From: Lysobacterales bacterium
Lineage (GTDB): Bacteria > Pseudomonadota > Gammaproteobacteria > Xanthomonadales > Marinicellaceae
Reading direction: 5' to 3'
Length of the DNA: 50,124 nucleotides
Assembly (NCBI GenBank): GCA_027067055.1
Contig: JAMOMK010000029.1
Span: 1 to 50,124 of the forward strand
Part shown: one piece after another, positions 21,546-49,841 of the stretch
How positions within the stretch are numbered: the first letter of the stretch is position 1
Layout: each line of letters starts with the position of its first letter
Position numbers and translations under genes: made by a program
Notes under the pieces: model-generated
What the model was told of the DNA's origin: nothing
What the model saw: only the letters and a program-made list of their open reading frames with translations
The model's database searches: none

Positions 21546-21896
21546 TTACAGAATCCAGCCACCTAAACAAATAGACCGACAATCTCTTTTTCTTTGCACA
21601 CATTCCCACAGTAGAAGACCATCGGCTATACAGTTATTGTAAATTGGCACACATGAAGCCTGATAACAACCAGGGCCTGGTATTATTACTATTCCACCAA
21701 TACTAGTATAGTTAAGTGGAAAAGCTTTGTTAACATGTGAACTAGGTAAATAGTTATTATTCAAATCGTCATTTATAATTGTATTTTCATTTATAATTGT
21801 ATTTTCATTTATAATTGTATTTTTTGATACTGCAGAACCAAACACCGCAGATAGCAATAATGTTAAAAAGGTTGCTTTTATAATATTTTTTTTCAT
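21546..21896 (-). CDS. Small secreted six-cysteine peptide precursor (module 1)
   Basis: 116 aa. A signal peptide covers about residues 1-23 (ending FGSAVS). Residues about 26-43 are three ENTIIN-type repeats encoded by a perfect 18-bp DNA repeat. The C-terminal domain has cysteines at 77, 82, 89, 99, 106 and 110, spacing C-x4-C-x6-C-x9-C-x6-C-x3-C, preceded by PGPG and ending LGGWIL. The same cysteine frame occurs in the peptide at 49560-49841 (CY...C...NC...W..C...C...C). GTGAG precedes the ATG by about 8 nt. It is divergent from a small secreted protein and the sensor kinase. A secreted disulphide-bonded peptide is predicted; signal, toxin or structural roles are all open. Confidence 0.72.
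   Translation of the reverse strand: MKKNIIKATFLTLLLSAVFGSAVSKNTIINENTIINENTIINDDLNNNYLPSSHVNKAFPLNYTSIGGIVIIPGPGCYQASCVPIYNNCIADGLLLWECVQRKRDCRSICLGGWIL
21771..21824. repeat. Three perfect 18-bp tandem repeats
   Basis: ATTTATAATTGTATTTTC occurs three times in a row (the last unit has a T-for-C change at its end) inside the six-cysteine peptide gene. It encodes ENTIIN units in the spacer between the signal peptide and the cysteine domain. Copy number could vary by slippage. Confidence 0.85.
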
Positions 21897-21928
21897 TGTA
21901 TTTTCTCACTAATTTTATTTAATTTATT

Positions 21929-21975
21929 CAATGCTATATATTTTTAGCATTGCCTTGCCTATTTTTTAAAATAGG
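21929..21975. promoter_or_regulatory. Two palindromes in the divergent promoter region of module 1
   Basis: CAATGCTA-N8-TAGCATTG (21929-21952) and CCTATTTTTTAAAATAGG (21958-21975) lie between the divergent peptide and secreted-protein genes (gap 21897-22155). They may be operators or transcript hairpins; no match to a known regulator was recognised. Confidence 0.35.
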
Positions 21976-22155
21976 TTATGCAAATTATATATTCTTGTGA
22001 AATAAAATTGGTATCAATAAACCGACTAAAACTTTCAAAATTTTTATTTTTATTATAATATTCCGCCTAATTATTTAATAAAAACGACATCTACTTGAAT
22101 GACTTCAAGCCTATAAATTAAAGTGCAGGCTCTTTTAAACATAGAGCTTAAAACC

Positions 22156-22455
22156 ATGAAAAACTATAAATTTTTATTAGTTATTACTTTTGTTGCTGCC
22201 AATGCACATTCCTCTATTGATGGACATACTATGTGTAAGCACGCAGGTATGACTTATGCATATGCTGGTGCAAATTATAATTGTCCAGATTATTCAGGCG
22301 ATGATGTTCAACTGCAATCAGGTTGGATTCATCATCATGGAGGCAACAATGAATATGCTAGAAGTGTCAATATTAGCGACCCAAGCTTGATACAAATAGA
22401 AGATCCTGGACATTGCACCATTACTAAGGAAAAAACAAATCAACATCTTTTTTAA
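22156..22455 (+). CDS. Small secreted three-cysteine protein (module 1)
   Basis: 99 aa from the ATG at 22156. A short signal peptide ends near ANA (17). The mature protein has cysteines at 27, 43 and 87, i.e. C-x15-C-x43-C, with DPGHC at the third. The protein at 49000-49296 has C-x15-C-x42-C with DPSC, which I read as remote homology. The middle is rich in H, G and N (WIHHHGGNNEY). It lies upstream of and co-directional with the sensor kinase gene, with a foldback element and a MITE between. Candidate ligand or periplasmic partner of that kinase (inference). Confidence 0.65.
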   Translation: MKNYKFLLVITFVAANAHSSIDGHTMCKHAGMTYAYAGANYNCPDYSGDDVQLQSGWIHHHGGNNEYARSVNISDPSLIQIEDPGHCTITKEKTNQHLF

Positions 22456-22475
22456 AAATATAGTCAAAATTATAC

Positions 22476-22584
22476 TAATCCCAAGTATAATAGAGACCTT
22501 TGCATAACTCTGCAACTTTTTACATGTTACACGAGTTATGCAAAGGTCTCTAATATTAATATTAGAATGATATGCTTGGGATTA
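22476..22584. mobile_element. Nested foldback elements
   Basis: Outer arms TAATCCCAAG (22476-22485) and CTTGGGATTA (22575-22584) enclose an inner palindrome with perfect 19-bp arms TAGAGACCTTTGCATAACT (22491-22509) and its complement (22534-22552). The inner arm recurs at 109-127. The layout suggests one MITE inserted into another. It lies within the 22456-22764 gap between the small secreted protein gene and the kinase gene. Confidence 0.75.
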
Positions 22585-22605
22585 TTGGTTGATGATTGAA
22601 TAATC

Positions 22606-22744
22606 AAAAATCCAGAGAGAGAAAATAAAATGATAGCACAAGTCCTTAATGTATCTAAAAACCCTTCTCACTAATGAGGTGTGTCCAGATTCCTTATACA
22701 CATCAATAGTACTCTCAAGTTCGTTTCTATATCGGGATTCGGGG
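22606..22744. mobile_element. MITE family B, copy 2, forming the kinase leader
   Basis: The right end TTTCTATATCGGGATTCGGG matches the 20-bp arm of copy 1 at 20124-20286 with one change. The interior GATAGCACAAGTCCTTAATG and CTCACTAATGAGG match copy 1 in the opposite orientation. The left arm is degraded (AAAAATCCAGAGAGAGAAAA). It ends 20 bp before the kinase start codon, so promoter or leader sequence of that gene is element-derived. Confidence 0.7.
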
Positions 22745-22764
22745 ATAAGGTAGACTTGATTTTT

Positions 22765-25700
22765 ATGAAACAATTAGAATTTATATTAATTGCATTATTT
22801 CTTACAAACTCTTTATATGCTTTTAGTGCTAAAATTTCTAATATAACTGTAAAGGATGGGTTGCCCAGCACTATTGTTAGGGATGTTTTGCAAGATAATT
22901 TTGGATTTTTGTGGATAGCTACCAAACATGGTTTAGTTAAATATGATGGATATGAGGTCGAAATTATTAATGACTATGACGATAAAAGCCTTGGTGATAT
23001 ATGGTCATTAGTACTTAATGACGATAACCATATTATTATAGCCTCTAAGACTAGGGGGTTATTCAAGTATAAACATGGAATAATTGAACAAATCAATATC
23101 CTCCAGAACCTTAAAAACTTAGAAATCACTTCAATAGAAGTGGATTCTAATGGAGCTCTATGGATCGGTACTAATCAAGGTACTTATCATTATTTTGAGG
23201 AAAAACTTATTGAAGTGAGAAGCTTTAAGAATGAAATTTCATACGGTTTTTTGAAATTTGATGAAAAAAAAATATTATCTTTAACTAACAAAAGCATCAT
23301 TAAATACAATGTCGATAGTAAATCTAGCAAAAAAGTTTATGGTCCTAAAAATGATAAATTAAATAAAGTAATTCACAAAGACTTAAAAGGAAATATTTGG
23401 TTAGGAAGAGAGGATGGTTTATATATATTCAACAATGAATGTTTGTGTTTTGAAAACTCCTTTAAAGAGCTTGAAGACAAAGTAGTATATTCGCTAGAAT
23501 CTAACCAGGAATATTTGTGGATAGGAACGATATACGATGATTTGTTTATTTACGAATATAAAACATCTAAACTAAACAAAATTTCTAAAAATTTGAATAA
23601 GTTTGGGTTAACAGATAAAAAGTCCATACTATCATTATACTACGACAACACAGGCACAATGTGGGTCGGGACTTTCCATAATGGCCTGTTTTCGATAAAT
23701 TCTAATCATCTTGATTTCAAGTCAAGAAACTCAAAGAGCGATAAATTTTTTTGTTCCAATAATTTTACTGTACACGACATCTTAAAAACAAATGATGGCA
23801 GTTTATTGTTAGCAACTGAAAATGGATTGGTTAGAATAGATAGGGATGGGAACTGTTCTAGTTTTAACCATGAAGAAGATAATGAAAATTCTTTATCAGC
23901 TAATTTACTTCTATCCTTACAACAGTCTTCAAATGGAGATGTATGGATAACAAATAACGAGATTGGAATAGATAAATTATCAACTGATACGTGGAGCATT
24001 GAACGAAAAGCTAAAAAAGCCAACAATCTTGATTTTTATTTTTCTGTAGAAGTTGAACCTGGAAAGTTAATTTTAGGCAGCTTTAAAAAAGGACTATACA
24101 CTTATGATATAGCTAAAGATAGTATCGAAAAAATTAATACCATTGATAGCAAATATGATTCATCAAGTTTTTATATGTATTCAGTAAATAAAAATGGCCA
24201 ATATTATTTTGGTACAGATAACGGTGTGGCTTTCTTGAATCAAAAAAACACACTTGAACAGGTAACAATTGATCATAATAATGAATTTTTAGAAATTACA
24301 GCGTTAAATTTTGATAAAAAAGGGGCTTTATGGATTGGTGTAAATAATAAATACTTATTAAAATACACAACAGATGGTGTAATTCAGAATATAACAAACC
24401 ATCTAGTGAAGAGCAATAATCCAATAAAGGTTTTCAGTATTATACCAACGGATATAGACACTTTATGGTTCTCAAGTAACAAAGGTATCCATAAATTAAA
24501 CACTAACACCTATGAAAACTGGGAATTCAATGCACAAGATGGATTACAAGGTAATGGATTCCTAGGGCAATCCTATCACCATGAAGAAAATGGGAATATA
24601 TATTTTGGAGGTAAAGATGGAATCAATTATTTCAACCCCCATCAGGTCTCGCTAAGCACTAGTAGCCCACAAACAGCAATAACAAAATTTAAATATTTTA
24701 ATAAAGTTTTAGATGTGGGCGTAAAAACCGATTCAAATTTTATCTTAGATAAACCTATAAATTATTTAGATGAAATTGAGCTTGGATATCAGGATTATAT
24801 TATCGGTTTCGAGTTTGCAGCTTTAGACTATGCTGATAGTATGCGTAACAAGTATGCCTATAGATTAAAAGGGCTAAATAATAATTGGGTTTATGTTGAT
24901 GCTAATGATAGAAAAGTCAGCTATACCAACTTAAAGCCAGGTAATTACACCTTTCAAGTTAAAGCATCAAACAAAGATGGTATGTGGAATCACACACCCA
25001 AAGAGTTGAAGATAAAAGTAAACCCCGCTCCGTGGTTTTCACCTTGGGCATATTTTAGTTATTTATTTATACTAGTTTTAATCATTTGGTGGTATGTAAG
25101 TTATAAGACTTTAGCCAGTCGAAAACGTGCAAGAGAATTAGAAAAGGAGGTTAAGGAAAGGACTCATGATGCCAATTTACAAAGGAAAATAGTTGAATCC
25201 TTGTTGAAACACAAAAATGAAGTATTTGCAAATATTACCCATGAACTTAAAACACCTCTGTCTTTAATAATTGGACCCATTGACCAATTACGTCAAGAGG
25301 TAATATTGGTAGAAAATAAAGACATATTAAATATGGTACAAAGAAATGCTAAGAGACTATTGTTAATGGTGGGTCAAATTTTAAAATTATCACAAGCCGA
25401 AGTAGATAAAGGAGCTATTCGAGAATCCCAAAATATTAAACCAATTCTAACTATGTTATATGAATCCTTCAGCCCTTTAGCAGACGATAAGAACTTAAAT
25501 TTAATTTTAATAAATGAACACGATGCTAATATTTATACTACATCAGAGTGTCTCGAAATTATTATTGGCAACCTATTATCAAATGCTCTAAAATATACTA
25601 ATTCGGGTGGAGAAATAAGCTTGGTTTCTAAATTAATAGATGACAATATTTTGATTAGTGTTAAAGATAATGGTATGGGAATTGATAAGAAAGACCTAGG

Positions 25701-26748
25701 TAGTATTTTCAAACGGTTTGTCCGGCTAGATCAGCATAAAAGTATTTCTGGTACTGGCATTGGATTATCTGTGGTTAAAGAAATAGTAGAGACCAACAAT
25801 GGTCAAGTTAAGGTAATTAGTGAGTGGGGTAAAGGCTCTGAATTTATTATTACATTTCCAATATCAGATATTGACAGCAACAATGAATTATCACAAGTGA
25901 TGGTGAAACAATTGGTTAGTAATACTAAAAATGAGATTAACTGTAACTATAGCAAAATTATTTCTAGGCGCAAAAGGGCAAAAAACAAAATTATCGTATT
26001 AATTATCGAAGATAATTTAGACATGCAAGCTCATATAGGCAATGTTCTTAAAGAGCACTTCTATTGTTTATTTGCCGATAGGGGTAGAAAAGGTATTGCT
26101 TTAGCACTAAAAGAGGTTCCTGATGTTGTTATTTGTGATGTCATGATGCCTACTATGGACGGTTATCAAGTTACAAGAGTGTTGCGTCATGATGGTAGAA
26201 CTTCACACATTCCCATAATAATGTTAACTGCTTTAAATACCAGAGAAAGCCGCATTAAGGGGTGGCGTGAAAACATTGACACCTATATTACTAAGCCATT
26301 TGATTCTACTGAATTAAATGCTCAAATTAAGAATATATTAACTATTCGAAAACTCCTTCAAAACCAAACAAATAAGGCCATTAAAAACAACATACCATTA
26401 AGTTCTATCGATTTACCTAAACAAGACCAAAAATTCATTGAGAAATTTAGAGATGTTATCGCTAAGCATTATGTGAATGAATATTTCCAAGTTGCTGACA
26501 TCGCATCCAAAATGGCAGTAAGTGAGCGCCAATTACAAAGGAAAATAAAGGCTTTGATTAATGAAAGCCCAATGGATATGCTACGGGAATACCGCCTTGA
26601 AAAATCTGCAATGAAACTAAAAGATGGTTATCAAGTAGGCATTGTAAGTGATGCTGTCGGTTTTAGTTCAGTTTCGTATTACAGCAGGTGTTTTAAGAAA
26701 AAATATGGAATGACTCCCAAACGATACCAAACACTAAATAAACGATAA
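22765..26748 (+). CDS. One-protein hybrid two-component regulator (Reg_prop/Y_Y_Y sensor kinase-REC-AraC), module 1
   Basis: 1327 aa from the ATG at 22765, where a signal sequence begins; an upstream in-frame GTG lies in a MITE. The order is: signal peptide; periplasmic two-propeller sensor with Reg_prop repeats (GFLWIATKHGL, GALWIGTNQG, GNIWLGREDG, GTMWVGTFHNGL); Y_Y_Y domain about 685-750; TM helix about 762-784; HisKA with H826 (THELKTPLS); HATPase_c (DNGMGI, GTGIGLS); receiver with D1125 (CDVMMPTMDG); and AraC helix-turn-helix about 1240-1327. This is the HTCS architecture best known from Bacteroidetes carbohydrate sensing. It senses outside the cytoplasm and acts as its own transcription factor. 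The adjacent small secreted proteins and the paralogous module at 44904-49841 suggest a peptide-linked signal here. Converges with tolC. Confidence 0.93.
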   Translation: MKQLEFILIALFLTNSLYAFSAKISNITVKDGLPSTIVRDVLQDNFGFLWIATKHGLVKYDGYEVEIINDYDDKSLGDIWSLVLNDDNHIIIASKTRGLFKYKHGIIEQINILQNLKNLEITSIEVDSNGALWIGTNQGTYHYFEEKLIEVRSFKNEISYGFLKFDEKKILSLTNKSIIKYNVDSKSSKKVYGPKNDKLNKVIHKDLKGNIWLGREDGLYIFNNECLCFENSFKELEDKVVYSLESNQEYLWIGTIYDDLFIYEYKTSKLNKISKNLNKFGLTDKKSILSLYYDNTGTMWVGTFHNGLFSINSNHLDFKSRNSKSDKFFCSNNFTVHDILKTNDGSLLLATENGLVRIDRDGNCSSFNHEEDNENSLSANLLLSLQQSSNGDVWITNNEIGIDKLSTDTWSIERKAKKANNLDFYFSVEVEPGKLILGSFKKGLYTYDIAKDSIEKINTIDSKYDSSSFYMYSVNKNGQYYFGTDNGVAFLNQKNTLEQVTIDHNNEFLEITALNFDKKGALWIGVNNKYLLKYTTDGVIQNITNHLVKSNNPIKVFSIIPTDIDTLWFSSNKGIHKLNTNTYENWEFNAQDGLQGNGFLGQSYHHEENGNIYFGGKDGINYFNPHQVSLSTSSPQTAITKFKYFNKVLDVGVKTDSNFILDKPINYLDEIELGYQDYIIGFEFAALDYADSMRNKYAYRLKGLNNNWVYVDANDRKVSYTNLKPGNYTFQVKASNKDGMWNHTPKELKIKVNPAPWFSPWAYFSYLFILVLIIWWYVSYKTLASRKRARELEKEVKERTHDANLQRKIVESLLKHKNEVFANITHELKTPLSLIIGPIDQLRQEVILVENKDILNMVQRNAKRLLLMVGQILKLSQAEVDKGAIRESQNIKPILTMLYESFSPLADDKNLNLILINEHDANIYTTSECLEIIIGNLLSNALKYTNSGGEISLVSKLIDDNILISVKDNGMGIDKKDLGSIFKRFVRLDQHKSISGTGIGLSVVKEIVETNNGQVKVISEWGKGSEFIITFPISDIDSNNELSQVMVKQLVSNTKNEINCNYSKIISRRKRAKNKIIVLIIEDNLDMQAHIGNVLKEHFYCLFADRGRKGIALALKEVPDVVICDVMMPTMDGYQVTRVLRHDGRTSHIPIIMLTALNTRESRIKGWRENIDTYITKPFDSTELNAQIKNILTIRKLLQNQTNKAIKNNIPLSSIDLPKQDQKFIEKFRDVIAKHYVNEYFQVADIASKMAVSERQLQRKIKALINESPMDMLREYRLEKSAMKLKDGYQVGIVSDAVGFSSVSYYSRCFKKKYGMTPKRYQTLNKR

Positions 26749-26811
26749 GGTACTCTGTCAGGAGGTGAATATCCCCCGTAGGTACGAGGGATTAAATTAT
26801 AAAGAGGGGGT

Positions 26812-28176
26812 TTACATAAGAATTTTATTAATGGTAAATATATCTTCTTCTGTCAAATCACCAGCAGAGCGTTTTAAGCCGAGGTATTGAATAAAATAAT
26901 CGTATTTGGCTTTAGAGTAATCACGTTGAGCTTGGTATAAACTGCGTTGCGAGTTAAGTACGTCAACGATAGTGCGTGTGCCGACTTCATAACCTGCTTC
27001 GGTTGCCTCTAGGCCGCTTTGGGCTGAAATCATCGCTTGTTTGCGTGCTTGCACACTACTTTTTGCTGCCAGTGTTCCGTGATAAGCATTACGTACTTTT
27101 CTGACGATACTGCGTCGTGTTTGTTCATATCGATCCATCGCTGCTTTGTGGTTGTGTACCGATTGACGAACTTGAGATTGTGTTCTACCACCAGAGTAAA
27201 TTGGCAAGTTAAAATTTAGTGTTGCAGTATTTGTTTCGGAAGTTCTATCGGTTTCAAAGACATCAACAATAAAGCCTCCTGGGTTGTTGGGGTCTGGCCT
27301 GGATTGTGAAAAAGTAGCATTTGGGTTTAATGAATGGTTGCGAGATAGGTTAAGACCAATTGTTGGGAGGTGCCCTGCTTTGTTGACTTGTATTTGTTTT
27401 TCTGCAATTTCTGTATCTAATAATGCTGCTGCTAGCTCTGGGTTAGTTCCAATAGCTTGTTCTTGGTAAACATCCATTGTTTTTAAGGTAAGGTCATTAT
27501 AGTCAATATCATCAGGAACAGGGTTAAGTTCGTCATAATATCTTTGTGTTATTTCAAACAAGGCCTCTTTGCTGTCATCTAACTGGTTGTTGGCAAGAAT
27601 AACCGAGGCACGAGCCCCGTCATAACGAGCCCGTGACTCGTGGACATCAGTAATAGCAGCTAAACCCACTTCAAATCGTTGTTCAGCTTGATCAAGTTGT
27701 CTTTGGATGGCTTTTTCTTCAGCTTTTGAAAATGTAAAGGAGTCTATCGCGCCAAGCACATTAAAATAGTTTTGTGCAACACGTAGGATAAAGTCTTGAT
27801 ATTGGGTGTCATAATCTGAGACAGATTTTAATACCTGAAGTTTGGATATTTTATAATTACCATAGTTTTTATGGTCATAAATAGACTGGTTAACTCCTAT
27901 GTTCCAGCCTTCTGTATTAATATCAAAAGTTTGAAAAGGAATAAGGCTACCACCACTTTCTGTATCACCTTTGGTTTTGTTCCAGCCCCCATTGATTTGC
28001 GGCAAAAATGCGGCAAAGGCTTGTTTTTTCCCTTCGCTACTGGCATTTAGTGTGTTTTTGGCAGCAGATAACTGTGGGTCATGTGCTTCGGATTGTTTAA
28101 AGACTTCGGCTAAATCTGCACTTAATGCGGAAAAGCTAAGAGTCAAAGCGCTTAGGCTTATTGCTAATTTTTTCAT
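26812..28176 (-). CDS. tolC: TolC family outer-membrane efflux/secretion channel
   Basis: 454 aa, typical TolC length, with signal peptide MKKLAISLSALTLSFSALSA. The two halves share the OEP pattern (FKQSEAHDPQLSAAKN near the N-terminus, YEVGTRTIVDVLNSQRSLYQ near the C-terminus). It forms the trimeric outer-membrane duct for type I secretion and RND or ABC efflux. The gene follows a Pcm-like methyltransferase gene by 15 nt, an arrangement common in gammaproteobacteria. It ends 63 bp from the end of the module 1 kinase gene, on the opposite strand. Confidence 0.94.
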   Translation of the reverse strand: MKKLAISLSALTLSFSALSADLAEVFKQSEAHDPQLSAAKNTLNASSEGKKQAFAAFLPQINGGWNKTKGDTESGGSLIPFQTFDINTEGWNIGVNQSIYDHKNYGNYKISKLQVLKSVSDYDTQYQDFILRVAQNYFNVLGAIDSFTFSKAEEKAIQRQLDQAEQRFEVGLAAITDVHESRARYDGARASVILANNQLDDSKEALFEITQRYYDELNPVPDDIDYNDLTLKTMDVYQEQAIGTNPELAAALLDTEIAEKQIQVNKAGHLPTIGLNLSRNHSLNPNATFSQSRPDPNNPGGFIVDVFETDRTSETNTATLNFNLPIYSGGRTQSQVRQSVHNHKAAMDRYEQTRRSIVRKVRNAYHGTLAAKSSVQARKQAMISAQSGLEATEAGYEVGTRTIVDVLNSQRSLYQAQRDYSKAKYDYFIQYLGLKRSAGDLTEEDIFTINKILM

Positions 28177-28191
28177 AATTTTATTTGTGTT

Positions 28192-28842
28192 TTATAGTTC
28201 GAATACTGATTTTTCTTCTAGTGTTTGTAATGGTTTGACAACAGTTTCGAATAAAGTTTCAATTTGAGCTTGTCCATCTGTGCTTTTCGTAATGAGGCAA
28301 GCCGACATAATAGGGTAAGTGCCAACAATGGCAAATATTTTCCCATCTTGTTTAATATTCTCAAGTAAGAATTCTGGTGTTTCTTCAAATGAACCCGTAG
28401 CAACGATACAATCGTACTTATAGGTAGAATTTAGGTTAAAAACATTATTTTTTTCACACTTAACATTGGTAATATTGGCTTCTGTTAATTTTTCAAGTGC
28501 TAAATCAATGAAATCTTGATAAATATCAACACTGGTAACGTGATCTGCAGATAAAGCCAGTAAAGCTGTCATATAAGCACTGCCTGTGCCAATTTCTAAT
28601 ATTTTTTCTGTACCTGTTAAGTTTAACGACTGCAAAATTCGCCCCTCTAGTATAGGCTTCATCATGTATTCATCATGAGCCATTGGGATTTCAAAATCAC
28701 TAAATGCTAGTTTTCTGTGTTCGACAGGGGCAAATTCTTCACGCTGTAGCTTGCGCATCAGGTTGATATTATCTGGACTGACAAAGTCCCATGTGCGGAC
28801 TTGGTTGAGTAACATGTTTTCTCTAGCTGTATTAAAATTCAT
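28192..28842 (-). CDS. Protein-L-isoaspartate O-methyltransferase-like protein
   Basis: 216 aa from the ATG at 28842, chosen because AGGTG lies 6 nt upstream. The SAM-binding motif LEIGTGSAYMTALLA (about 79-93) and N-terminal ARENMLLNQVRTWDF fit the Pcm-like family found upstream of tolC. Repair of isoaspartyl residues is the family role, but this subgroup differs from canonical Pcm and may act on another substrate. Co-directional with tolC (15 nt). Confidence 0.85.
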   Translation of the reverse strand: MNFNTARENMLLNQVRTWDFVSPDNINLMRKLQREEFAPVEHRKLAFSDFEIPMAHDEYMMKPILEGRILQSLNLTGTEKILEIGTGSAYMTALLALSADHVTSVDIYQDFIDLALEKLTEANITNVKCEKNNVFNLNSTYKYDCIVATGSFEETPEFLLENIKQDGKIFAIVGTYPIMSACLITKSTDGQAQIETLFETVVKPLQTLEEKSVFEL

Positions 28843-28974
28843 TGTTTTCACCTAATTTTTGGTTCTTTGTGGCAATTGTCTCTATAATTGCGCGGTTAGA
28901 ATAATTATTTAACGAATAGTGGGTGCATAAGTTACCTTAAAACTATTATTAACACAATGGGCTAAAAGTCACTA

Positions 28975-29601
28975 ATGCATGTAAAACAACTCAAAGAACT
29001 GTTAATTGACGGTCTAAAAGATCTTAATCTTGACACCGCTCAAGCAGATAAGCTTATAGACTATGTTTTGTTATTGGAAAAATGGAACAAAACCTATAAT
29101 ATTACAGCTATTCGTGACCTTAAGCAGATGGTTATTTTACACCTGATTGATAGTGCGTCAGTTTACCGCTATTTAATCGGAAACTCAATCATTGATGTCG
29201 GAACTGGTGGAGGAATTCCAGGAATTATCTTTGCTATTCTCAATCCTCAATTAAATACAACTTTATTAGACAGCAGTCAAAAGAAGACTCGATTTCTACG
29301 ATTTGCCCAAAGGCAGCTTAAATTAGCCAATGTCACAATAGTTTGTCAAAGAGTTGAAAAATATCAAGCCATAAAACCCTATGATGTGGTAATATCACGA
29401 GCCTTCACCGAAGTCGGGAATTTTTTAAAATTATCTGGGCACTTGTGTGCTGATTCAGGGCAGATGCTAGCAATGAAAGGCCCTCGAATTGAATCAGAAA
29501 AGAATGCACAAGAACAAGGCTTTGAATTAGTGCAAGATATTGATGTGAAGGTGCCTTTTTTAGAGGCACAAAGACGATTATTGGTATTTAATAAATTATG
29601 A
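28975..29601 (+). CDS. rsmG: 16S rRNA (guanine527-N7)-methyltransferase
   Basis: 208 aa, full length for RsmG (GidB). The SAM site DVGTGGGIPGIIFAI (about 66-80) and LEKWNKTYNITAIRD near residue 40 are family signatures. It methylates G527 in 16S rRNA. Its stop overlaps the parA start by 4 nt, preserving the classic rsmG-parA-parB order near the replication origin of many bacteria. Confidence 0.96.
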   Translation: MHVKQLKELLIDGLKDLNLDTAQADKLIDYVLLLEKWNKTYNITAIRDLKQMVILHLIDSASVYRYLIGNSIIDVGTGGGIPGIIFAILNPQLNTTLLDSSQKKTRFLRFAQRQLKLANVTIVCQRVEKYQAIKPYDVVISRAFTEVGNFLKLSGHLCADSGQMLAMKGPRIESEKNAQEQGFELVQDIDVKVPFLEAQRRLLVFNKL

Positions 29602-33493: not shown

Positions 33494-33495
33494 CC

Positions 33496-40703: not shown

Positions 40704-40881
40704 AAGTTTAAACCTTTTATCCCATATTGCAGCAAGTTTTGATGCACCTATATACCATAATAATGTAAAGTACATAGACATATCAATAATAGCCTTTGAT
40801 TTTAAAGAAAAGAATGTAAATCAAAGATAAATTGTTTTTAGTTCATGTCGTGTATGACAAAAAATTGGTGTTAACTATAAA

Positions 40882-41799: not shown

Positions 41800-41816
41800 A
41801 GAGAATTTTACAAAAC

Positions 41817-42253: not shown

Positions 42254-42891
42254 AGCCCCAACAATTCATTTGGGTGTTTTAAAGCTATGGTAGCTTGCCA
42301 TTTTTCTGGTTTTTCATTTGAACCAATATATCCCCACAGCGCAATAGCTGTTTGCATATTGGCAGCATTGCCAGCGGTTATATCTGACAAGGCATCACCG
42401 ATGTACCAACTTTTTTCAGAATTAATTTTGAGTTTTACAACCGCTGTGTTGATGGGTTCGGGGTGAGGTTTTGAGAATTCGGTACTGTCTCCACCGACAA
42501 GAACTCCGCAGTTTTTTAATGCCAATAAAGAGTCAACCAAGGGTCTGGCTAAATAATAAGGTTTATTGGTGACGATTCCCCAAGGGATTTTTTGTCTATC
42601 CAAAACTTTGATGAAATCCTCAACCCCAGCAAATAAGCACGACCCCTGGGTTAAAATTTCTTGATAAATATCCAAATAGCGTTTTTGTAATTTTAAAAAA
42701 GTTGGTTGGTCAGTTTTTCCAAAAATTGATTCAACAATGGCTCGTGAACCATGAGTAATGAGTTCTTTATATTCAGTATGGTCGGGTTCAATTTCGATAG
42801 CGTTTTCTTTAGCTAGCAATTTTAGGGCTTGTAACATATCAATGGCGGTATCTACTAGTGTGCCATCCAAATCAAATAAAAAACCCTTCAT
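42250..42891 (-). CDS. gph: Phosphoglycolate phosphatase (HAD family)
   Basis: 213 aa. The HAD nucleophile motif FDLDGTLVDT is at residues 6-15. Motif II (VTNKP) and motif III/IV (SKPHPEP, WYIGDALSDITAGNAAN) follow. It dephosphorylates 2-phosphoglycolate from DNA-end repair. It lies 3 nt after ubiG and overlaps the DUF6702 gene start, in the gph-ubiG pairing frequent in gammaproteobacteria. Confidence 0.92.
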   Translation of the reverse strand: MKGFLFDLDGTLVDTAIDMLQALKLLAKENAIEIEPDHTEYKELITHGSRAIVESIFGKTDQPTFLKLQKRYLDIYQEILTQGSCLFAGVEDFIKVLDRQKIPWGIVTNKPYYLARPLVDSLLALKNCGVLVGGDSTEFSKPHPEPINTAVVKLKINSEKSWYIGDALSDITAGNAANMQTAIALWGYIGSNEKPEKWQATIALKHPNELLGL

Positions 42892-42894
42892 GAA

Positions 42895-43599
42895 CTATTT
42901 CTTCTGTGCTGCGATTAGATAATTGATTGAAACATCATGCTGTTCCAGCCACGCTTTGGTGGAAATCGGGTTATATTTCATACCGCAAATATCTTTGACT
43001 TCAAGCTTCGTTTTTTCAATACCTGCTGCCAACTCAGAAGGCTTGATAAACTGATCGTAGTGGTGCGTGCCTTTTGGCACTAAACCCATCACATGCTCTG
43101 CCACAAAAATCCCTAGTATCATGGCTTTAGGTGAACGGTTAATCGTCGATAAAAATAACCAACCACCAGGCTTTAATATTTTCGCACAAGCATTAACAAT
43201 CGATTGTGGGTCAGGTACATGTTCAAGCATTTCCATACAAACAACGACATCCGCACTACTTTCATGTTGCTTTGCATAGTCCTCAACACTGATATTCTGG
43301 TAGTCAATTTTATGACCGCTTTCATAAAGGTGAAGTTTTGCTACCTCTAAAGATTCACCTGCTAAATCAATACCAGAAACATGAGCGCCACAGGCTACCA
43401 TGGCTTCGGAAAAAACACCTCCCCCACAGCCAACATCTAAAACAGTTTTTTCGTTTAAGTCGACAAATTTATTAACATAATCGGTGCGAACAGGATTGAT
43501 GTGGTGCAAGGTTTTAAATGGCCCTTGCTCATCCCACCAAAAGGAAGCTTGCGAATTAAAATGCTCTATTTCACTTTTTTTAAAGTTTGTTGTACTCAT
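42895..43599 (-). CDS. ubiG: Ubiquinone biosynthesis O-methyltransferase
   Basis: 234 aa from the ATG at 43599, with AGGTGG about 6 nt upstream. SAM-binding VLDVGCGGGVFSEAMA-type motif (about 53-66), N-terminal FNSQASFWWDEQGPFKTLH, and ICGMKYNP near the C-terminus match UbiG. It carries out both O-methylations in ubiquinone synthesis. Coupled with an ICMT-like gene upstream and gph downstream. Confidence 0.95.
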   Translation of the reverse strand: MSTTNFKKSEIEHFNSQASFWWDEQGPFKTLHHINPVRTDYVNKFVDLNEKTVLDVGCGGGVFSEAMVACGAHVSGIDLAGESLEVAKLHLYESGHKIDYQNISVEDYAKQHESSADVVVCMEMLEHVPDPQSIVNACAKILKPGGWLFLSTINRSPKAMILGIFVAEHVMGLVPKGTHHYDQFIKPSELAAGIEKTKLEVKDICGMKYNPISTKAWLEQHDVSINYLIAAQKK

Positions 43600-43600
43600 G

Positions 43601-44095
43601 TTATAACCACCTACGCACTTTATTTTTGTAATCCAAATATTCTTGCCCAAAAAGCTTTTCCAAATAAACCTCTTCAGGGTCAATCACCCATTTGTTTAAT
43701 AACCAGAACACAAAAGGCAAACTCAAAATAACATACAAGTTGTTTAACTTAATCGCAACAACAATTTGAGCAACCAAAAACCCTAAATATATCGGGTTAC
43801 GGGTTATTTTAAAAATTCCACCTGTGTACAACGCATTAGTTGGTGTATGTGGCTCAGGGTTTTGTCTGGTTTTAAAGAAAAAATACAAGCTAAAGCCAAA
43901 TAATACACTTGCCACAACCATTAAAACATAAGCAATTATCATTTGAACATTTACACTAATTGGAATCGCTAAGGAGTAAATAAAGCGGTTGAGTAACCAA
44001 GCGACAACAATAAAAATTAGTGGTATCAATGGCGGTATTGTCTTGACTTTGGCATGGTCTTTTTTGTTTTCATCATTCATTGCTAAATGGTACAT
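43601..44095 (-). CDS. Isoprenylcysteine carboxyl methyltransferase-like membrane protein
   Basis: 164 aa with four hydrophobic segments. The C-terminal half has TRNPIYLGFLVAQ and DPEEVYLEKLFGQEYLDYKNKVRRW, the ICMT/PEMT (NnrU-like) signature for SAM-dependent methylation of a lipid or small molecule. An in-frame ATG at 44080 is an equally plausible start; neither has a clear ribosome site. Its stop is 1 nt before the ubiG start. Confidence 0.85.
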   Translation of the reverse strand: MYHLAMNDENKKDHAKVKTIPPLIPLIFIVVAWLLNRFIYSLAIPISVNVQMIIAYVLMVVASVLFGFSLYFFFKTRQNPEPHTPTNALYTGGIFKITRNPIYLGFLVAQIVVAIKLNNLYVILSLPFVFWLLNKWVIDPEEVYLEKLFGQEYLDYKNKVRRWL

Positions 44096-44150
44096 TCTTA
44101 GATACTAAAACGCAATAATTTCAGTAATGGTATGAAACAATGAACAAAAA

Positions 44151-44180
44151 AAAGCAAACCCTAGTGGTTTGCTTTTTAAA
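44151..44180. terminator. Bidirectional terminator
   Basis: AAAGCAAACC and GGTTTGCTTT form a 10-bp stem with a 5-nt loop, flanked by an A-run on one side and TTTTT on the other. It would end the minus-strand dodecin transcript. A MITE (44187-44345) lies between the last dodecin stop and this terminator. Confidence 0.85.
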
Positions 44181-44186
44181 ACAGTA

Positions 44187-44345
44187 GAGGTATATGCATA
44201 ACTAAAAACAGTGGGAGTGTAGCCCACATTGGCTATTTTTTCTCTAAAAACCAAACTATAGAATGACTATAGATTCAATTTTTAGAGAAAAAACTAGCTC
44301 AATGTGCATCTCCACCCCATTCGCCCATAGTTATGCATATACCTC
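44187..44345. mobile_element. MITE family A, copy 2 (159 bp)
   Basis: Same 18-bp terminal inverted repeats and interior as the element at 16598-16757, with about 90% identity by eye. Inner arms TTTTTTCTCTAAAAA and TTTTTAGAGAAAAA. It sits between the second dodecin gene and its terminator, so it is transcribed as a 3' foldback. Confidence 0.88.
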
Positions 44346-44372
44346 TATAGTTTAACTTTCTTGAGGTTAAAC

Positions 44373-44573
44373 TTATTTTAAGACAAAAGTCACTTTGATA
44401 ATCACACGATATTGATCAATTTTACCATCTTTTACGGTAACTTTTTGGCTTTCAACCCATGCGCCTGTAACATTTTTTAATGTTTCTGTGGCTCTTTTTA
44501 TACCATTTCTGACGGCTTTTTCAAAACTTTTTGATGAAGAGGCTGACACCTCGGTAATTCTTGCTACGCTCAT
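44373..44573 (-). CDS. Dodecin family protein (second of tandem pair)
   Basis: 66 aa, the standard dodecin length. ARITEVSASSSKSFEKAV and GAWVESQKVTVKDGKI match the flavin-binding dodecamer that stores or buffers FMN/FAD; the tryptophan W43 region would stack on the isoalloxazine ring. AGGAG lies 6-8 nt before the ATG. 9 bp downstream of a close paralog. Confidence 0.92.
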   Translation of the reverse strand: MSVARITEVSASSSKSFEKAVRNGIKRATETLKNVTGAWVESQKVTVKDGKIDQYRVIIKVTFVLK

Positions 44574-44582
44574 TATTAACTC

Positions 44583-44783
44583 CTATTTTAAGATGAAGGT
44601 GACTTTCATATTGACACGGTATTGATCGATTTTACCATCTTTCACTGTAACTTTTTGTGACTCAACCCATGCACCTGTAATACCTTGAATAGTCTCTGCT
44701 GCACGTGTGATACCTTTTTTCACAGCATCTTCAAAACTTTCATTAGATGATGCAGTAATTTCTGTAATTCTTGCGATACTCAT
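44583..44783 (-). CDS. Dodecin family protein (first of tandem pair)
   Basis: 66 aa, roughly 75% identical by eye to the adjacent dodecin, with the same GAWVESQKVTVKDGKIDQYR core. AGGAG precedes the ATG. A recent tandem duplication is the simplest explanation. Mixed dodecamers are possible. Confidence 0.92.
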   Translation of the reverse strand: MSIARITEITASSNESFEDAVKKGITRAAETIQGITGAWVESQKVTVKDGKIDQYRVNMKVTFILK

Positions 44784-44903
44784 ATTTTTCTCCTTTTTAT
44801 GGATTTATTGTTCTTAAAGACACCCGCCTTTAAAGCCTATTTATTATACATTAATTTTAAATAAATTAGAAAAAAAATTGCAAACTAGCATTAATGACTA
44901 GCT

Positions 44904-47900
44904 TCAATTGTTTTTCTTACATATTGTTTGGTAAACTTTTGGCGACATTCCAAACTGAGCTTTAAAACATTTAGAAAAATGTGGCAAAGAACTAAATCCA
45001 CACTCATCAGATGTTATGCTCACTTGATAACCATCTTTGAGCATAATTGCTGCTTGTTGCAAACGGTATTCACGCATTAAATCCATTGGATTTTTATCGA
45101 TTAATGCCTTGAGTTTTCTTTGTAACTGCCGTTCACTTACTGCCATATCGCTAGCAAGTTGTGGTCTTTGGTATAATGAATCTTTATATTTATTGGCAAT
45201 AATAACATTGAGTTTGTTGACAAAGTCTTGATCTTTTTTCGACAAATCAATGGTGCTTGGTGTATTTTTTCCCACCTTTACCTTTTGTGAATTCTTTTCT
45301 TTAAGTATGTTACGAATAACCAAGATACTTTCTAATTGCAACAAGAGTTCTTTTACATCAAAAGGTTTAGTTAAATAAACATCAACGTGTTCACGCCAAC
45401 CTCTAGTTCTACCTTCTTTGCTATCAAGTGCCGTTAATAACATTAAAGGAATATGCGAAGTTCTCCCATCTGAACGTAAAATACGCGACACATGAAAGCC
45501 ATCCATTTCGGGCATCATCACATCACAAATAATAATATCAGGAACATGTTCTATTGCAAGAGCAATACCTTTTTTACCTCGGTCAGCGAGTAAACAATAA
45601 TAATGTTGTTTAAGTGAGTCTGCAATATGGGCTCGCATATCGTTATTGTCTTCAATGATGAGTATGGTTTCGTTGCGTTTGTTGCCAACTTTTTCACTTC
45701 TTAACCCAATTTCTTGTACTTGTTTAGCTTCGTGGCAGAGCTGTTTTACCAACATACTTGAGTTGTTGTTAGCTTGAGTTTTTACCGCCTCTTCATCACT
45801 GCAATGAAAAGTTATCGCAAAAGTACTACCAGCACCCAACTGGCTAGTGGTTTCAATACTTGCATTATTAACCTTTAAAAGTTCTTCAACTACACTCAAG
45901 CCAATCCCAATACCTTCAATATTTTGGTGCGAATCCAAGCGTTTAAAGCGATTGAATATTTCTTTCTGTTGTTTTTCGTCTAACCCACAACCTGAGTCTT
46001 TTACTTTTAAATAAAATTTTTCATTCACTAGTTTAGCACTGACTTTAATAGTTCCTCCGGTTGGAGTGTACTTGATGGCATTTGACAACAAGTTACTCAA
46101 AATAATATCAAGTGCATCTTTGCTTACTTTTATACAAGCATTATTATTATCATTGAGCTTAAGTTCGATTCTTTTTTCTTTGGCACTATCGGTGAAAGAT
46201 GCAACGATGTCTCTCACGTGTTTTTGTGTATTTATGGTTTGGAATTTGATTTTATCAAAATCTGAAATCTTGGCAATTTGCAATATCTGTTCTATCATGG
46301 TTAATAAACGGTTGGCATTTCTATTGACCATTTTAAGAGCATTGATATCTGAGTGTGGAAGGTGTGAATTAAGTAATTTATTAACTGGTCCAAGAATTAA
46401 GGTTAAGGGTGTGCGAAATTCATGCGAAACATTAGTGAAGAGTTCATTTTTTTTGGCAAGCAATGTTTCTACTGTTTGTTTTTGCACTTGCAGTTCTTTG
46501 GTTTGTTTTTCAACTTCATTTTTAAGCATTGTGGTTATGCGTAAATTTGCTTGATTTTTTCTTTTAAGATACCAATAAATCGTACAAATACCAAATAAAA
46601 TATAGAGAAAATAAGCCCGCCAGCTTAACCAAGGAGCGGGTTTGACAATGATTTTCAATGACTTGCCTTGCTGGTTCCAAACACCATCTTTATTCGAGCC
46701 TTTGACTCTAAAGGTGTATTCACCAGAAGATAGATTTGTATAACTTATTTGTCGATTATCTGCATTCACATAAGTCCAGTCTGGATTTAACCCCTCCATC
46801 TTGTAGGCGTATTTATTACGGGATGGGTCAGCATAATCTAGTGCCGAAAATTCAAAACCAATTACATAATCCTTATGCGTTAATACTAGTTCATCAAGTT
46901 CATTAATTGGTTGTTCTAACATAAAGCCACTCTTATATTGCCCAACTTTAATTGACTGTCCAAAGCGAGTAAAATCGGTTAAGACAATATTAGGAGGTTT
47001 TTCATTTGTTACTATATCCTCAGGATTGAAGGATATAATGCCATTTGTTAAACCTAAATATATCTTTTTACCACTATAATATGAAGAGTTAGGTAAGTAA
47101 TAATCATTTGACTTTCCTGTAATATTTATAAAAACAAATAATTTATTTGTTTTTAATTCAAACCTAATTAAACCTTTATTTGTTCCTAACCAAAGACTGT
47201 TTTTTTTGTCTAATGTAATGCTATTTAATAAAAACTGTTTGAAAAATTTATTTTTAAGGTTAATTATTCTTATTAATTTACCATTTTGATTAAATACCAA
47301 AACTTTATCTCCTTGAGTTCCTATATAGATATCATTAGTTGAGCTAATATAACTAGCAGATATGGCTGAAGATAAATGACTGTTGATTTTTTCAAAAGGG
47401 AGTAAAGTGTCATTTTTTATATAAAACAAACCATTGGGATAAGTTACAATAACCCTATTGTTTGCATCACTAGCAATGTTGATAGCCTTTGTGTTTTCTG
47501 TGTTTTTTATAACCTTTATATTAGAAAATTTTTTATAATACTTAAAAATCCCTTTGTTTGTTCCAAGATAAATATTCTCTTGGCTCTTGTGCGTAATGTA
47601 GATTACATCTTTGAAATCTAAACTTTTTATTCTATTGGTTTTGCTATTATAGGACTTAATACCTTTTGAAGTAGAAAGCCAGAAATTATCTTCTACCTTC
47701 ATTATTGAATAAATTGTATAGTTATTATTGGACTTGGTGTTGAACAATGTACATTTAAAGAGCTTTTCGTTATATTTTACAAGCCCGCTACTTGTACCTA
47801 AAAGCATCTCATTCTTACCTAATGGTAAAATTGCATAAGTTGTGGATGACTGTATACAAGAAAGACTACGGGTTGATGTCGTTTCATATTTAAAATTTAT

Positions 47901-48851
47901 TAAATTTAAATCTAACTTACTAAGTCCATTATAAAAATTTCCAACCCATAAAGTGTTGTTTCTTGAAATATATATTATATTTATGTATTTATCAGACAAA
48001 TTATTGTTTTCAAGTCGATTAATTGAAGAGCTCTGTATATTGTTGAGTTCATCTATATAAAAAACCCCTTTATCAATTGTAGCTACCCAGGCTTTATTTT
48101 TATGTTTAACTACTTTTAGAATTCTTGTATTCATTAGCTCCTTAGGAGGTTCCTGATATGTTTTTGTTATAGTGTTATAAATAAAAAGTCCTTTTGATGT
48201 ACTAATCCAGTACTTGTTATTTATTTTTACAACATCATGAATATACAAAGTTTTATCGCCTTGTAGCTTCATGTGGTGTTTAATTCTTCCAGTAGTGCTA
48301 TCTAGGCTATAAAAACCATTTTTGGTTCCTATTAGTAAGGTTTCTTTATTGTCAATAGAAAGGGAAGTAATCTTTTTTCCTTTTAGGCCTGTTTTAAGGT
48401 TAAACTCCTTCTTAGTGTACGAATACTTAATGAGCCCTATTGTTGTTCCTATCCATATTGCATTTGAAGTTTTACTAATTGATGTAACCAGAGGATTTTT
48501 TCCATCAGCATTAAGAAAGGGGATTTTAACTATTTCCCACTGGCTTTCTGTTCTTTTATATACTCCATTCTTACTTGTACCAACCCAAATAGAATTTTGT
48601 TTATCAATCACTAAGGATGTAACAGCAATATCATTATTTAAAGGTATATTGATTTTATTAAAGTTATAACCATCAAATTTAAAAAGTCCTTTGGTTGTCC
48701 CTACCCATAAATACCCTATATTATCTTCTAGTATCACTTTAACACTCAAAGAAGTTAAGCCCTGACTTGTTCCATAATGTTTTAATGTGGTTACAGCTGA
48801 AAAAATTGAATTTGAAAATATTATAATAAAAATAAATAAATATTTAGTCAT
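44904..48851 (-). CDS. One-protein hybrid two-component regulator (Reg_prop/Y_Y_Y sensor kinase-REC-AraC), module 2
   Basis: 1315 aa. Signal peptide (MTKYLFIFIIIFSNSIFSA), propeller sensor with Reg_prop repeats (GYLWVGTTKGLFKFDGYNF, SIWVGTSKNGVYK, TLWVGNFYNGLSKLD), Y_Y_Y domain about 660-735, TM helix about 745-768, HisKA with H810 (SHEFRTPLT), HATPase_c (DSGCGL, GIGIGLS), receiver with D1110 (CDVMMPEMDG), AraC helix-turn-helix at the C-terminus (FSKCFKAQFGMSPKVYQ). Domain order is identical to the kinase at 22765-26748 and the output half is closely similar, while the sensor is clearly more divergent. It is preceded by a co-directional small secreted protein and a divergent six-cysteine peptide, as in module 1. 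Dodecin genes follow it. Confidence 0.93.
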   Translation of the reverse strand: MTKYLFIFIIIFSNSIFSAVTTLKHYGTSQGLTSLSVKVILEDNIGYLWVGTTKGLFKFDGYNFNKINIPLNNDIAVTSLVIDKQNSIWVGTSKNGVYKRTESQWEIVKIPFLNADGKNPLVTSISKTSNAIWIGTTIGLIKYSYTKKEFNLKTGLKGKKITSLSIDNKETLLIGTKNGFYSLDSTTGRIKHHMKLQGDKTLYIHDVVKINNKYWISTSKGLFIYNTITKTYQEPPKELMNTRILKVVKHKNKAWVATIDKGVFYIDELNNIQSSSINRLENNNLSDKYINIIYISRNNTLWVGNFYNGLSKLDLNLINFKYETTSTRSLSCIQSSTTYAILPLGKNEMLLGTSSGLVKYNEKLFKCTLFNTKSNNNYTIYSIMKVEDNFWLSTSKGIKSYNSKTNRIKSLDFKDVIYITHKSQENIYLGTNKGIFKYYKKFSNIKVIKNTENTKAINIASDANNRVIVTYPNGLFYIKNDTLLPFEKINSHLSSAISASYISSTNDIYIGTQGDKVLVFNQNGKLIRIINLKNKFFKQFLLNSITLDKKNSLWLGTNKGLIRFELKTNKLFVFINITGKSNDYYLPNSSYYSGKKIYLGLTNGIISFNPEDIVTNEKPPNIVLTDFTRFGQSIKVGQYKSGFMLEQPINELDELVLTHKDYVIGFEFSALDYADPSRNKYAYKMEGLNPDWTYVNADNRQISYTNLSSGEYTFRVKGSNKDGVWNQQGKSLKIIVKPAPWLSWRAYFLYILFGICTIYWYLKRKNQANLRITTMLKNEVEKQTKELQVQKQTVETLLAKKNELFTNVSHEFRTPLTLILGPVNKLLNSHLPHSDINALKMVNRNANRLLTMIEQILQIAKISDFDKIKFQTINTQKHVRDIVASFTDSAKEKRIELKLNDNNNACIKVSKDALDIILSNLLSNAIKYTPTGGTIKVSAKLVNEKFYLKVKDSGCGLDEKQQKEIFNRFKRLDSHQNIEGIGIGLSVVEELLKVNNASIETTSQLGAGSTFAITFHCSDEEAVKTQANNNSSMLVKQLCHEAKQVQEIGLRSEKVGNKRNETILIIEDNNDMRAHIADSLKQHYYCLLADRGKKGIALAIEHVPDIIICDVMMPEMDGFHVSRILRSDGRTSHIPLMLLTALDSKEGRTRGWREHVDVYLTKPFDVKELLLQLESILVIRNILKEKNSQKVKVGKNTPSTIDLSKKDQDFVNKLNVIIANKYKDSLYQRPQLASDMAVSERQLQRKLKALIDKNPMDLMREYRLQQAAIMLKDGYQVSITSDECGFSSLPHFSKCFKAQFGMSPKVYQTICKKNN

Positions 48852-48903
48852 TGAGAAACCTTGTGAACAGTGCCAATTTTTGTACTTGAATTTCTAAAAC
48901 TAA

Positions 48904-48929
48904 CTGTATATAAATTTTATTATATACAG
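48904..48929. promoter_or_regulatory. Palindrome upstream of the module 2 kinase
   Basis: CTGTATATAA and TTATATACAG are perfect 10-bp arms around ATTTTA, 53 bp before the kinase start. A second small hairpin TGTAGC-GGG-GCTACA lies at 48977-48991 just after the upstream gene's stop. They may be an operator and a weak transcript hairpin; no regulator is identified. Confidence 0.4.
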
Positions 48930-48999
48930 CTAATAAAGATTAATCTACGGTAGATTCCATTTAAGTTTACTACCATTGTAGCGGGGCTACAAACTATTA

Positions 49000-49296
49000 C
49001 TATAGATGCCCTGATATTACTTCAAAACAAGATGGATCATGGGGAATTTGCTCCTTAGTCTGTAACGGTCTACTTTTATTAAGGTTTGAGTATACAAAGT
49101 TCTTATTGTTTAAATGATATGACTGCCATGGAGGTGGATTGCGAACATTGAAGCTACACTCTTTATGAACTGGGATTGTTTCGTATAGTTCATCGTGAAA
49201 AAGACAAAGTGTATAAATAGCTGCACTAGCATTGCAGGAGAGAAGGGATATAGTACTGAAAACCCCTATAATTAGTATGTTATATTTTTGTGTCAT
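49000..49296 (-). CDS. Small secreted three-cysteine protein (module 2)
   Basis: 98 aa. The signal peptide ends near NASA (25); LLSC at residues 18-21 could instead be read as a lipobox-like LSC-N, but the following residue is unusual for a lipoprotein. The mature part has cysteines at 31, 47 and 90: C-x15-C-x42-C, with DPSC at the third, matching the frame of the protein at 22156-22455. It is co-directional with and 148 bp upstream of the module 2 kinase. Function unknown; candidate sensor partner. Confidence 0.65.
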   Translation of the reverse strand: MTQKYNILIIGVFSTISLLSCNASAAIYTLCLFHDELYETIPVHKECSFNVRNPPPWQSYHLNNKNFVYSNLNKSRPLQTKEQIPHDPSCFEVISGHL

Positions 49297-49559
49297 AGTT
49301 TTTCCAACAATATTTTAAAGAGGCTAAATCGTAAGGTTGCACATAGTATTGAGTCAACAGTATGTCTTGTATAGTTAAATAATTGTCCGTTATAGATAAT
49401 TATTGCAGTAACTCTAATAAATTTCAGACCTTTGTAAGCTAACTTGATTTAATCAAATAGAGTTAAGATGCGCTCATGGTATTAGGATTTCCTATGCCAA
49501 GATATGGACTATATTTTTAATATAGACATAATTATTAATCAACTATTATAGAGAAAATT
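49297..49559. promoter_or_regulatory. Divergent promoter region of module 2
   Basis: 263 bp between the divergent secreted genes, close to the 259 bp of module 1. It contains CTATAT-TTTTA-ATATAG (49509-49525). No -35/-10 pair stands out from the AT-rich background, and I see no gene. Confidence 0.35.
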
Positions 49560-49841
49560 ATGAATAAAATAATATTAACACTGGCCCTAACTGTTACACT
49601 TGGTTCTGCCTCAGCTAGCAAGAGTAACATTGAAAACAAACAAACTGGCATGTTATATAAAGCTTCGGCAAATTCTGGCATCCATCAAACATTAAGTTCT
49701 AAAAATACAGGAAGTGAAATGGCATGTTACAAATCGTGTATTGATGTTTTCATTAACTGTATAAATAACCCTTATGGAAGTTCTTGGGTATTATGTGAAA
49801 TTAAAATGGAAAACTGTATGGCTGGATGTGAAGGTCTATAA
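49560..49841 (+). CDS. Small secreted six-cysteine peptide precursor (module 2)
   Basis: 93 aa. Signal peptide about 1-19 (ending SASA). A polar spacer of ~35 residues leads to a C-terminal domain with cysteines at 56, 60, 67, 79, 86 and 90: C-x3-C-x6-C-x11-C-x6-C-x3-C, ending CEGL. It shares CY at the first cysteine, NC at the third and a W two to three residues before the fourth with the peptide at 21546-21896. GAG lies about 8 nt before the ATG. A strong terminator follows 17 nt after the stop, so it is expressed as a single unit. Confidence 0.75.
   Translation: MNKIILTLALTVTLGSASASKSNIENKQTGMLYKASANSGIHQTLSSKNTGSEMACYKSCIDVFINCINNPYGSSWVLCEIKMENCMAGCEGL

Follow-up and report, generated by a model that had tools for sequence, protein, structure and literature searches.

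Peptide quorum sensing of the agr type works with a variable product and a variable receptor, and lantibiotic autoregulation uses a LanRK pair. For ComQXPA, polymorphism of both the small product and the receptor is described in one account (PMC4408185), and small partners that tune a kinase are treated in an account of the accessory proteins of histidine kinases (PMC8534201). Here we describe modules in which a hybrid two-component system (HTCS) with a fused AraC-type output is preceded by a small, secreted-looking protein with three conserved cysteines (three-Cys protein) and accompanied by cysteine-containing, secreted-looking peptides. Two such modules lie in a stretch of 50,124 nucleotides from a Lysobacterales bacterium (assembly GCA_027067055.1, contig JAMOMK010000029.1, hereafter the window). 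We propose, with slightly better than even confidence, that each three-Cys protein serves the propellers of its HTCS as a dedicated ligand or co-sensor, that the peptides are the regulated output, and that each module is a self-contained, insulated unit.

Six modules in one genome

The initial annotation had placed two mirror-image copies of a peptide, secreted protein and HTCS module in the window, and both are present. Module 1 comprises a six-Cys secreted-looking peptide of 116 amino acids (21546..21896, minus strand; C-x4-C-x6-C-x9-C-x6-C-x3-C), the three-Cys secreted-looking protein of 99 amino acids that is the candidate co-sensor or ligand (22156..22455, plus strand), and an HTCS with two propellers, Y_Y_Y, HisKA, HATPase_c, REC and AraC output (22765..26748, plus strand). 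The HTCS has an ATG at 22765, and the listed open reading frame (ORF) opens earlier with a GTG at 22681. Module 2 has an HTCS of the same domain order (44904..48851, minus strand), a three-Cys secreted-looking protein of 98 amino acids with one additional cysteine within its signal-like N-terminus (49000..49296, minus strand), and a six-Cys secreted-looking peptide of 93 amino acids (49560..49841, plus strand; C-x3-C-x6-C-x11-C-x6-C-x3-C). The coordinates agree with the divergent gaps first given, 259 bp in module 1 and 263 bp in module 2. Matches to Reg_prop, Y_Y_Y, HisKA, HATPase_c, Response_reg and HTH_18 all exceed the curated cut-offs in both HTCS, and none of the four small window proteins comes near the cut-off of a Pfam or NCBIfam family.

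The two HTCS share 37% identity overall. The propellers are least alike (30% and 24%), the kinase part is intermediate (42%), and Y_Y_Y and REC-AraC both reach 58%. The description of the kinase output halves as closely alike therefore suits REC-AraC and Y_Y_Y better than it does the kinase itself. Similarly, the cysteine spacing C-x15-C-x42-C, said to be kept in both three-Cys proteins, is that of module 2, whereas module 1 has C-x15-C-x43-C.

A search of the whole assembly for Y_Y_Y found nine genes, six of which are alike throughout, AraC end included. All six of these AraC-type HTCS have a three-Cys secreted-looking protein directly upstream on the same strand, the remaining three Y_Y_Y genes (L012, L013 and L016) are without one, and a profile built from the six three-Cys proteins matches those six alone in the genome (E 0.01). 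A divergent six-Cys peptide belongs to three modules, two of them in the window. The third module reaches the end of its contig, and contig C128 opens with a peptide 92% identical to that of the related module L037; we infer that this peptide and the contig-end module belong together. The divergent peptide is of a 4-Cys type in module L010, and in modules L014 and L015 the HTCS is followed by three peptides in tandem, of the 2-Cys or 4-Cys type.

Because the arrangement, with small genes beside homologous kinases, recurs at six loci here and in many other genomes, it is more than chance. The constant partner is the three-Cys protein; the six-Cys peptide, which the initial annotation had treated as part of the same unit, is replaced by other peptides and is also found away from HTCS.

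The three-Cys protein and the sensor cysteine pair

Related loci were gathered in two sets. From the scan of named genomes, which confirmed 372 stretches, the best 80 were used; nine first-set loci (L037-L045) and L077-L079 were fetched through three-Cys matches, and the other loci came from Y_Y_Y or HTCS searches, in which mainly frames of about 1300 amino acids were chosen. Two sensor cysteines are found in 28 of the 48 first-set HTCS, and the pair is absent in 20. In the frame of module 1 these cysteines are residues 359 and 393, close to where the two propellers join; the conserved pair spans 23752..23856 on the plus strand in module 1 (codons 23752-23754 and 23854-23856) and 47751..47858 on the minus strand in module 2 (codons 47856-47858 and 47751-47753).

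A three-Cys protein lies upstream in 25 of the 25 first-set Cys-pair HTCS with at least 700 bp of upstream sequence (9 of these loci fetched via a three-Cys match, 16 independently), and three others are cut by contig ends. Marinicella contigs are among the relatives with these modules, and Cys-pair HTCS loci also come from Aliikangiella, Pleionea, Kangiella-like, Colwellia and Thermoanaerobaculia genomes. The second set has 26 pair HTCS for which upstream DNA is available; 14 of them are preceded by a three-Cys protein, as judged by eye among the ORFs listed (L077 and L078 were fetched through three-Cys matches), and in one (L139) the protein lies downstream. An automated rule places a three-Cys partner upstream at 34 of the 51 loci with the pair and at none of the 48 without it (first and second sets: 24 of 25 and 10 of 26 with the pair, 0 of 18 and 0 of 30 without it). 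For this count 18 of 83 second-set HTCS were dropped as repeats of first-set loci, and loci with less than 700 bp upstream were left out (4 with the pair, 10 without).

In a midpoint-rooted tree of the Y_Y_Y-kinase-REC region, from which up to seven truncated rows were removed, the Cys pair changes three times by Fitch parsimony (seven times before the removal), and ten non-pair HTCS nested inside the pair clade are without a partner by the automated rule. The link is therefore not that of one frozen clade, and the number of independent events is small. The partner gene ends 1-11 bp before the HTCS open frame at L010, L015, L039, L124 and L125, and these short gaps suggest one transcript. An order-wide search with the three-Cys profile matched at least 14 of 398 genomes, all Marinicellaceae, and a broader profile used class-wide matched one of 369, namely this genome, the sole Marinicellaceae member among those listed; the three-Cys family is therefore rare or the profiles are weak. 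As a separate observation, secreted-looking proteins of about 270-340 amino acids with Cys pairs also stand beside Cys-pair HTCS (L143, L173, L139, L134 and L140), in tandem in L143 and L173, and the two that were scanned, from L143 and L139, have no Pfam match.

The three cysteines are the sole invariant columns of the three-Cys family alignment apart from the start. The small ORFs of the initial annotation carry a coding signature, with dN/dS of 0.12-0.51 in four three-Cys ortholog pairs; the ratio is 0.11-0.41 in three 2-Cys peptide pairs and 0.10 in one six-Cys pair, some of the underlying dS values being saturated. The small proteins scanned against Pfam, NCBIfam and PHROGs fall in no family (the best PHROGs match, at E 0.01, is of unknown function), and a crude hydropathy measure suggests that the three-Cys protein is exported. 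Its structural model has three short strands at modest confidence (pLDDT 70.4, pTM 0.42), and Foldseek against the PDB found no match at E 0.001 (best E 2.1). When the three-Cys protein and the sensor were modelled as one fused chain, 677 of 858 residues reached a pLDDT of at least 70 and the sensor was good; the alignment used has the partner in 10 of 27 rows, badly aligned past the first hairpin. The sensor matches four PDB chains named as two-component sensor kinases (4a2l, 3v9f, 3ott and 3va6), which we take to be Bacteroides HTCS domains. A mixed disulfide between the sensor Cys pair and the odd partner cysteine is not claimed, the fused fold having left the partner unplaced, and an alignment by MAFFT of the three-Cys hairpin on the sensor Cys stretch was treated as probably Cys-driven.

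Divergence of the partner was compared with that of the HTCS parts by partial Mantel tests over 33 loci, out of 39 at which the three-Cys protein lies upstream (465 locus pairs, 2000 permutations). The Spearman correlation with propeller 1 is 0.28, and 0.27 given the kinase (reached in 0 of 2000 permutations); with propeller 2 it is 0.21, and 0.195 given the kinase (5 of 2000). The correlation with the kinase given propeller 1 is 0.025 (673 of 2000). The partner co-diverges with the propellers and not with the kinase.

One pair of loci from two family genomes, L041 (genome G027) and L042 (G028), is 87.5-96% identical, in bins of 200 bp, over a tract that opens shortly before the three-Cys gene, ends at about base 1730 of the HTCS frame and holds the three-Cys gene and about 580 sensor residues. 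Identity drops to 66-74.5% in the two preceding bins and to 69-84.5% in the remainder of the HTCS, and is 47.5-84.5% in the other flanking bins. It seems that the partner gene and most of the sensor were exchanged as one piece, with the Y_Y_Y and kinase parts left behind. In agreement with this, dS in the pair is 0.14 for the three-Cys gene, 0.37 for the sensor and 2.4 for the kinase part. Adjacency of the genes could by itself favour a tract of this kind, and this is a single case. The earlier suggestion that the module duplicated and then changed specificity agrees with the presence of six modules, the recurrence in and beyond the family, the joint divergence of propellers and three-Cys proteins, and the better conservation of the output half.

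A small, secreted-looking and fast-diverging protein that adjoins its receptor, co-diverges with the propellers and seems to have been swapped with the receptor part as one tract might also be a pheromone. The three-Cys protein would then leave the cell, each module would have its own pherotype and the other peptides would be the response, an arrangement like agr or ComQXPA with an HTCS as its basis; an operator-like element before its own operon, described below, could close a positive loop. We regard this as unlikely, since a protein of 80-160 amino acids is large for a pheromone and the module ORF lists, read by eye among the ORFs listed and with no family scan of all neighbours, hold no constant processing or export gene. 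A broader proposal, to which we also give rather little credence, is a Gram-negative peptide communication based on HTCS, with the three-Cys protein as the cell-to-cell signal, parallel channels that do not interfere, cassettes of signal and propellers swapped between species, and an arsenal of peptides for each channel, lanthipeptides included.

An operator-like element and a variable peptide slot

An element of the pattern [ACG][CG]GACA-N5-T[TG]NA is found ahead of many genes for partners and peptides. In module 1 there is one clear half-site, ACGACATCTACTTGA (22084..22098, plus strand), which lies in the divergent gap and starts 72 bp before the three-Cys start codon. Module 2 has two on the minus strand of its divergent gap, CGGACAATTATTTAA (49375..49389) and, 21 bp from it, AAGACATACTGTTGA (49354..49368). 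The hexamer ACGACA has the top enrichment score in 50 upstream regions of 300 bp (19 observed, 2.2 expected) and occurs in 17 of 180 control regions. When the sites are aligned, the pattern lengthens to ACGACA-N5-TT-N-A, with AGGACA or GGGACA forms at related loci, and A[CG]GACA-N5-TT is found in 27 of the 50 regions versus 3 of 180 controls, the pattern being partly tuned on the same set. The 50 regions include divergent gaps counted from both sides, and their GC content is 28.5% versus 34% in the controls.

A second half-site peaks at -21 bp (7 of 32) and +21 bp (6 of 32), the mean over offsets being 3%, and direct pairs at 21 bp accompany 13 of 32 elements, mostly before three-Cys genes. 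A distance of 21 bp is the spacing of AraC sites, and the AraC domain of the HTCS presumably binds the element. The element argues that the peptides are regulated products. An orphan six-Cys peptide on contig C66 has such a site 187 bp upstream. Separately, a palindrome-like GTAAA...TTTAC was seen by eye near -50 of several tandem peptide genes (L014, L015, L038 and L039).

The peptide slot varies between six-Cys peptides, 4-Cys peptides, tandem 2-Cys peptides and a lanthipeptide cluster. Seven aligned six-Cys peptides follow the pattern C-x2 to 4-C-x6-C-x8 to 12-C-x6-C-x3-C, which may describe a helical hairpin with three rungs, and an eighth has four cysteines. The six-Cys profile has 30 matches (E 0.01) in 13 of 33 family genomes. 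Other small peptides were seen along the way. At L182, from an Algicola metagenome-assembled genome (MAG), a secreted-looking peptide with the near-identical six-Cys spacing x3-x6-x8-x6-x4 is divergent from an HTCS without the Cys pair, outside Marinicellaceae. In two genomes small Cys peptides (L190:4053-4361 and L201:4960-5205) stand beside a similar secreted-looking protein of about 1030 amino acids, possibly a conserved pairing. Two tandem orphan six-Cys peptides with glycine/proline-rich tails (L194:1414-2470) lie near an ORF that we take to be transposase-like.

The genome G021 is that of Marinicella sediminis F2, to judge from a 100% match of the L115 gene; in it, a class II lanthipeptide cluster (L078, outside the window) lies opposite a tandem three-Cys/HTCS module. 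The cluster encodes a LanM with DUF4135 and LANC_like, an ABC transporter with a C39 peptidase, and a putative precursor, called by its position and the look of its leader and without a family match. This LanM, divergent from the module, is the sole PF13575 match in the 33 family genomes. One account reports the class II lanthipeptide marinsedin from this strain, and the module-linked cluster probably makes it. In a Thermoanaerobaculia MAG (L136) another LanM, accompanied by an HlyD-type gene, directly follows a module in convergent orientation.

The LanM clusters in or near the peptide slot, the variability of the peptides and the RHS-repeat proteins that adjoin two modules (L124 and L167) could also speak for toxin and immunity functions, with the peptides as bacteriocins, the three-Cys protein as an immunity or neutralising factor and the HTCS sensing attack. 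But the three-Cys protein tracks the HTCS and not any one peptide type, and the orphan peptides listed had no three-Cys neighbour, so that we hold this to be very improbable.

Further features were noted next to the modules. The RHS-repeat proteins are large (L124:139-7404 and L167:1286-6427), and one of them also matches SpvB and FG-GAP. An imperfect, MITE-like inverted repeat (22460-22585) separates the three-Cys gene of module 1 from the HTCS and has 27 matching segments in the genome, counting itself, some of them close to contig ends. Just downstream of the module 2 HTCS (44373-44783) there are two similar tandem ORFs of 66 amino acids, which presumably resemble dodecins.

Proposed mechanism

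Among the readings considered, a dedicated ligand or co-sensor with a peptide output is the best supported. The signal peptide would export the three-Cys protein, which would act in or beyond the periplasm and meet the two-propeller sensor of its own HTCS. The sensor would relay the signal via HisKA to REC and AraC, which belong to the same chain, and the AraC domain, binding direct half-sites 21 bp apart, would drive both the operon of its own three-Cys protein and HTCS and the genes of secreted peptides nearby. The six-Cys, 4-Cys and tandem 2-Cys peptides and the lanthipeptide cluster would be the effector output, and paralogs may stay separate through the joint divergence of each three-Cys protein and its propellers. 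Contact between partner and sensor, the positive sign of the regulation and the effector role of the peptides are thus putative elements of the scheme.

Several results weigh against this proposal. Another Cys-containing secreted-looking protein takes the place of the partner at 7 of the 26 second-set pair loci, and at 4 of the 26 (L122, L123, L137 and L141) the ORFs listed for the same strand show no partner in roughly the first 1 kb upstream. The three-Cys part of the fused model has a pLDDT below 50 and is unplaced, so that contact is unsupported by it. Co-divergence is strongest for the HTCS part nearest the three-Cys gene, and physical linkage may explain part of it. Many six-Cys peptides have no HTCS nearby in the stretches fetched. 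Of 26 held-out regions upstream of partner genes, 1 has the element, compared with 3 of 144 controls (the start of L153 in this set is off by one codon), and it has no genome-wide enrichment (243 sites versus 333 for the reversed pattern). These two results rule it out as a general operator, and the element is therefore a lineage-level finding.

Some of these points would equally suit an HTCS that senses something else, for example a glycan, the three-Cys protein and the peptides being only neighbouring members of its regulon and the co-divergence a product of linkage. Characterised HTCS are called carbohydrate-sensing in one account (PMC3404733), the element stands before both kinds of gene, some pair loci are without a partner, and the correlation favours the nearest part. 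Such an input appears improbable to us, as the family keeps the partner almost throughout but exchanges the peptides, the automated rule finds no partner at any of the 48 non-pair HTCS, the ten nested in the pair clade among them, and the gaps between partner and HTCS are short.

Comparison with known systems

Among the matches listed in the open-access literature, no HTCS with cysteine-rich secreted partners is described. The modules join a known kind of regulator to a nearly constant partner for which no description was found and to a variable peptide output.

The likeness to ComQXPA and agr lies in a variable, secreted-looking small product (secretion judged by crude hydropathy) encoded beside a variable sensor kinase, and possibly in one apparent joint exchange of the receptor part and small gene, which physical linkage may also explain. 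Unlike in those systems, the receptor is an HTCS with a fused AraC output and two propellers, export is signal-peptide-like, and communication is a proposal. The peptide cluster beside a two-component regulator in F2 recalls lantibiotic autoregulation, but instead of LanRK the F2 module has an HTCS and a three-Cys partner. Accessory proteins of histidine kinases are likewise small partners; in contrast to them, the modules have one divergent partner per paralog, which co-diverges with its sensor, and its tuning of the kinase is putative. The element shares two-box half-sites and a direct spacing of 21 bp with AraC/XylS operators, a likeness of spacing and layout, and unlike them is absent from the held-out loci.

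The operator-like element and the linkage within modules offer a handle to find and switch on secreted peptides and the lanthipeptide cluster, and the six modules of this genome are a natural set of parallel receptor-partner pairs for specificity studies. The closest relatives are the Bacteroides-type HTCS, with the same domain order and sensor architecture and with sequence matches to all four PDB chains. Unlike these, the modules have an extra Cys pair in the sensor, a dedicated three-Cys partner upstream and secreted peptides nearby. HTCS have been treated as carbohydrate sensors, and a Cys-pair branch with a matched partner points to a protein or peptide input.

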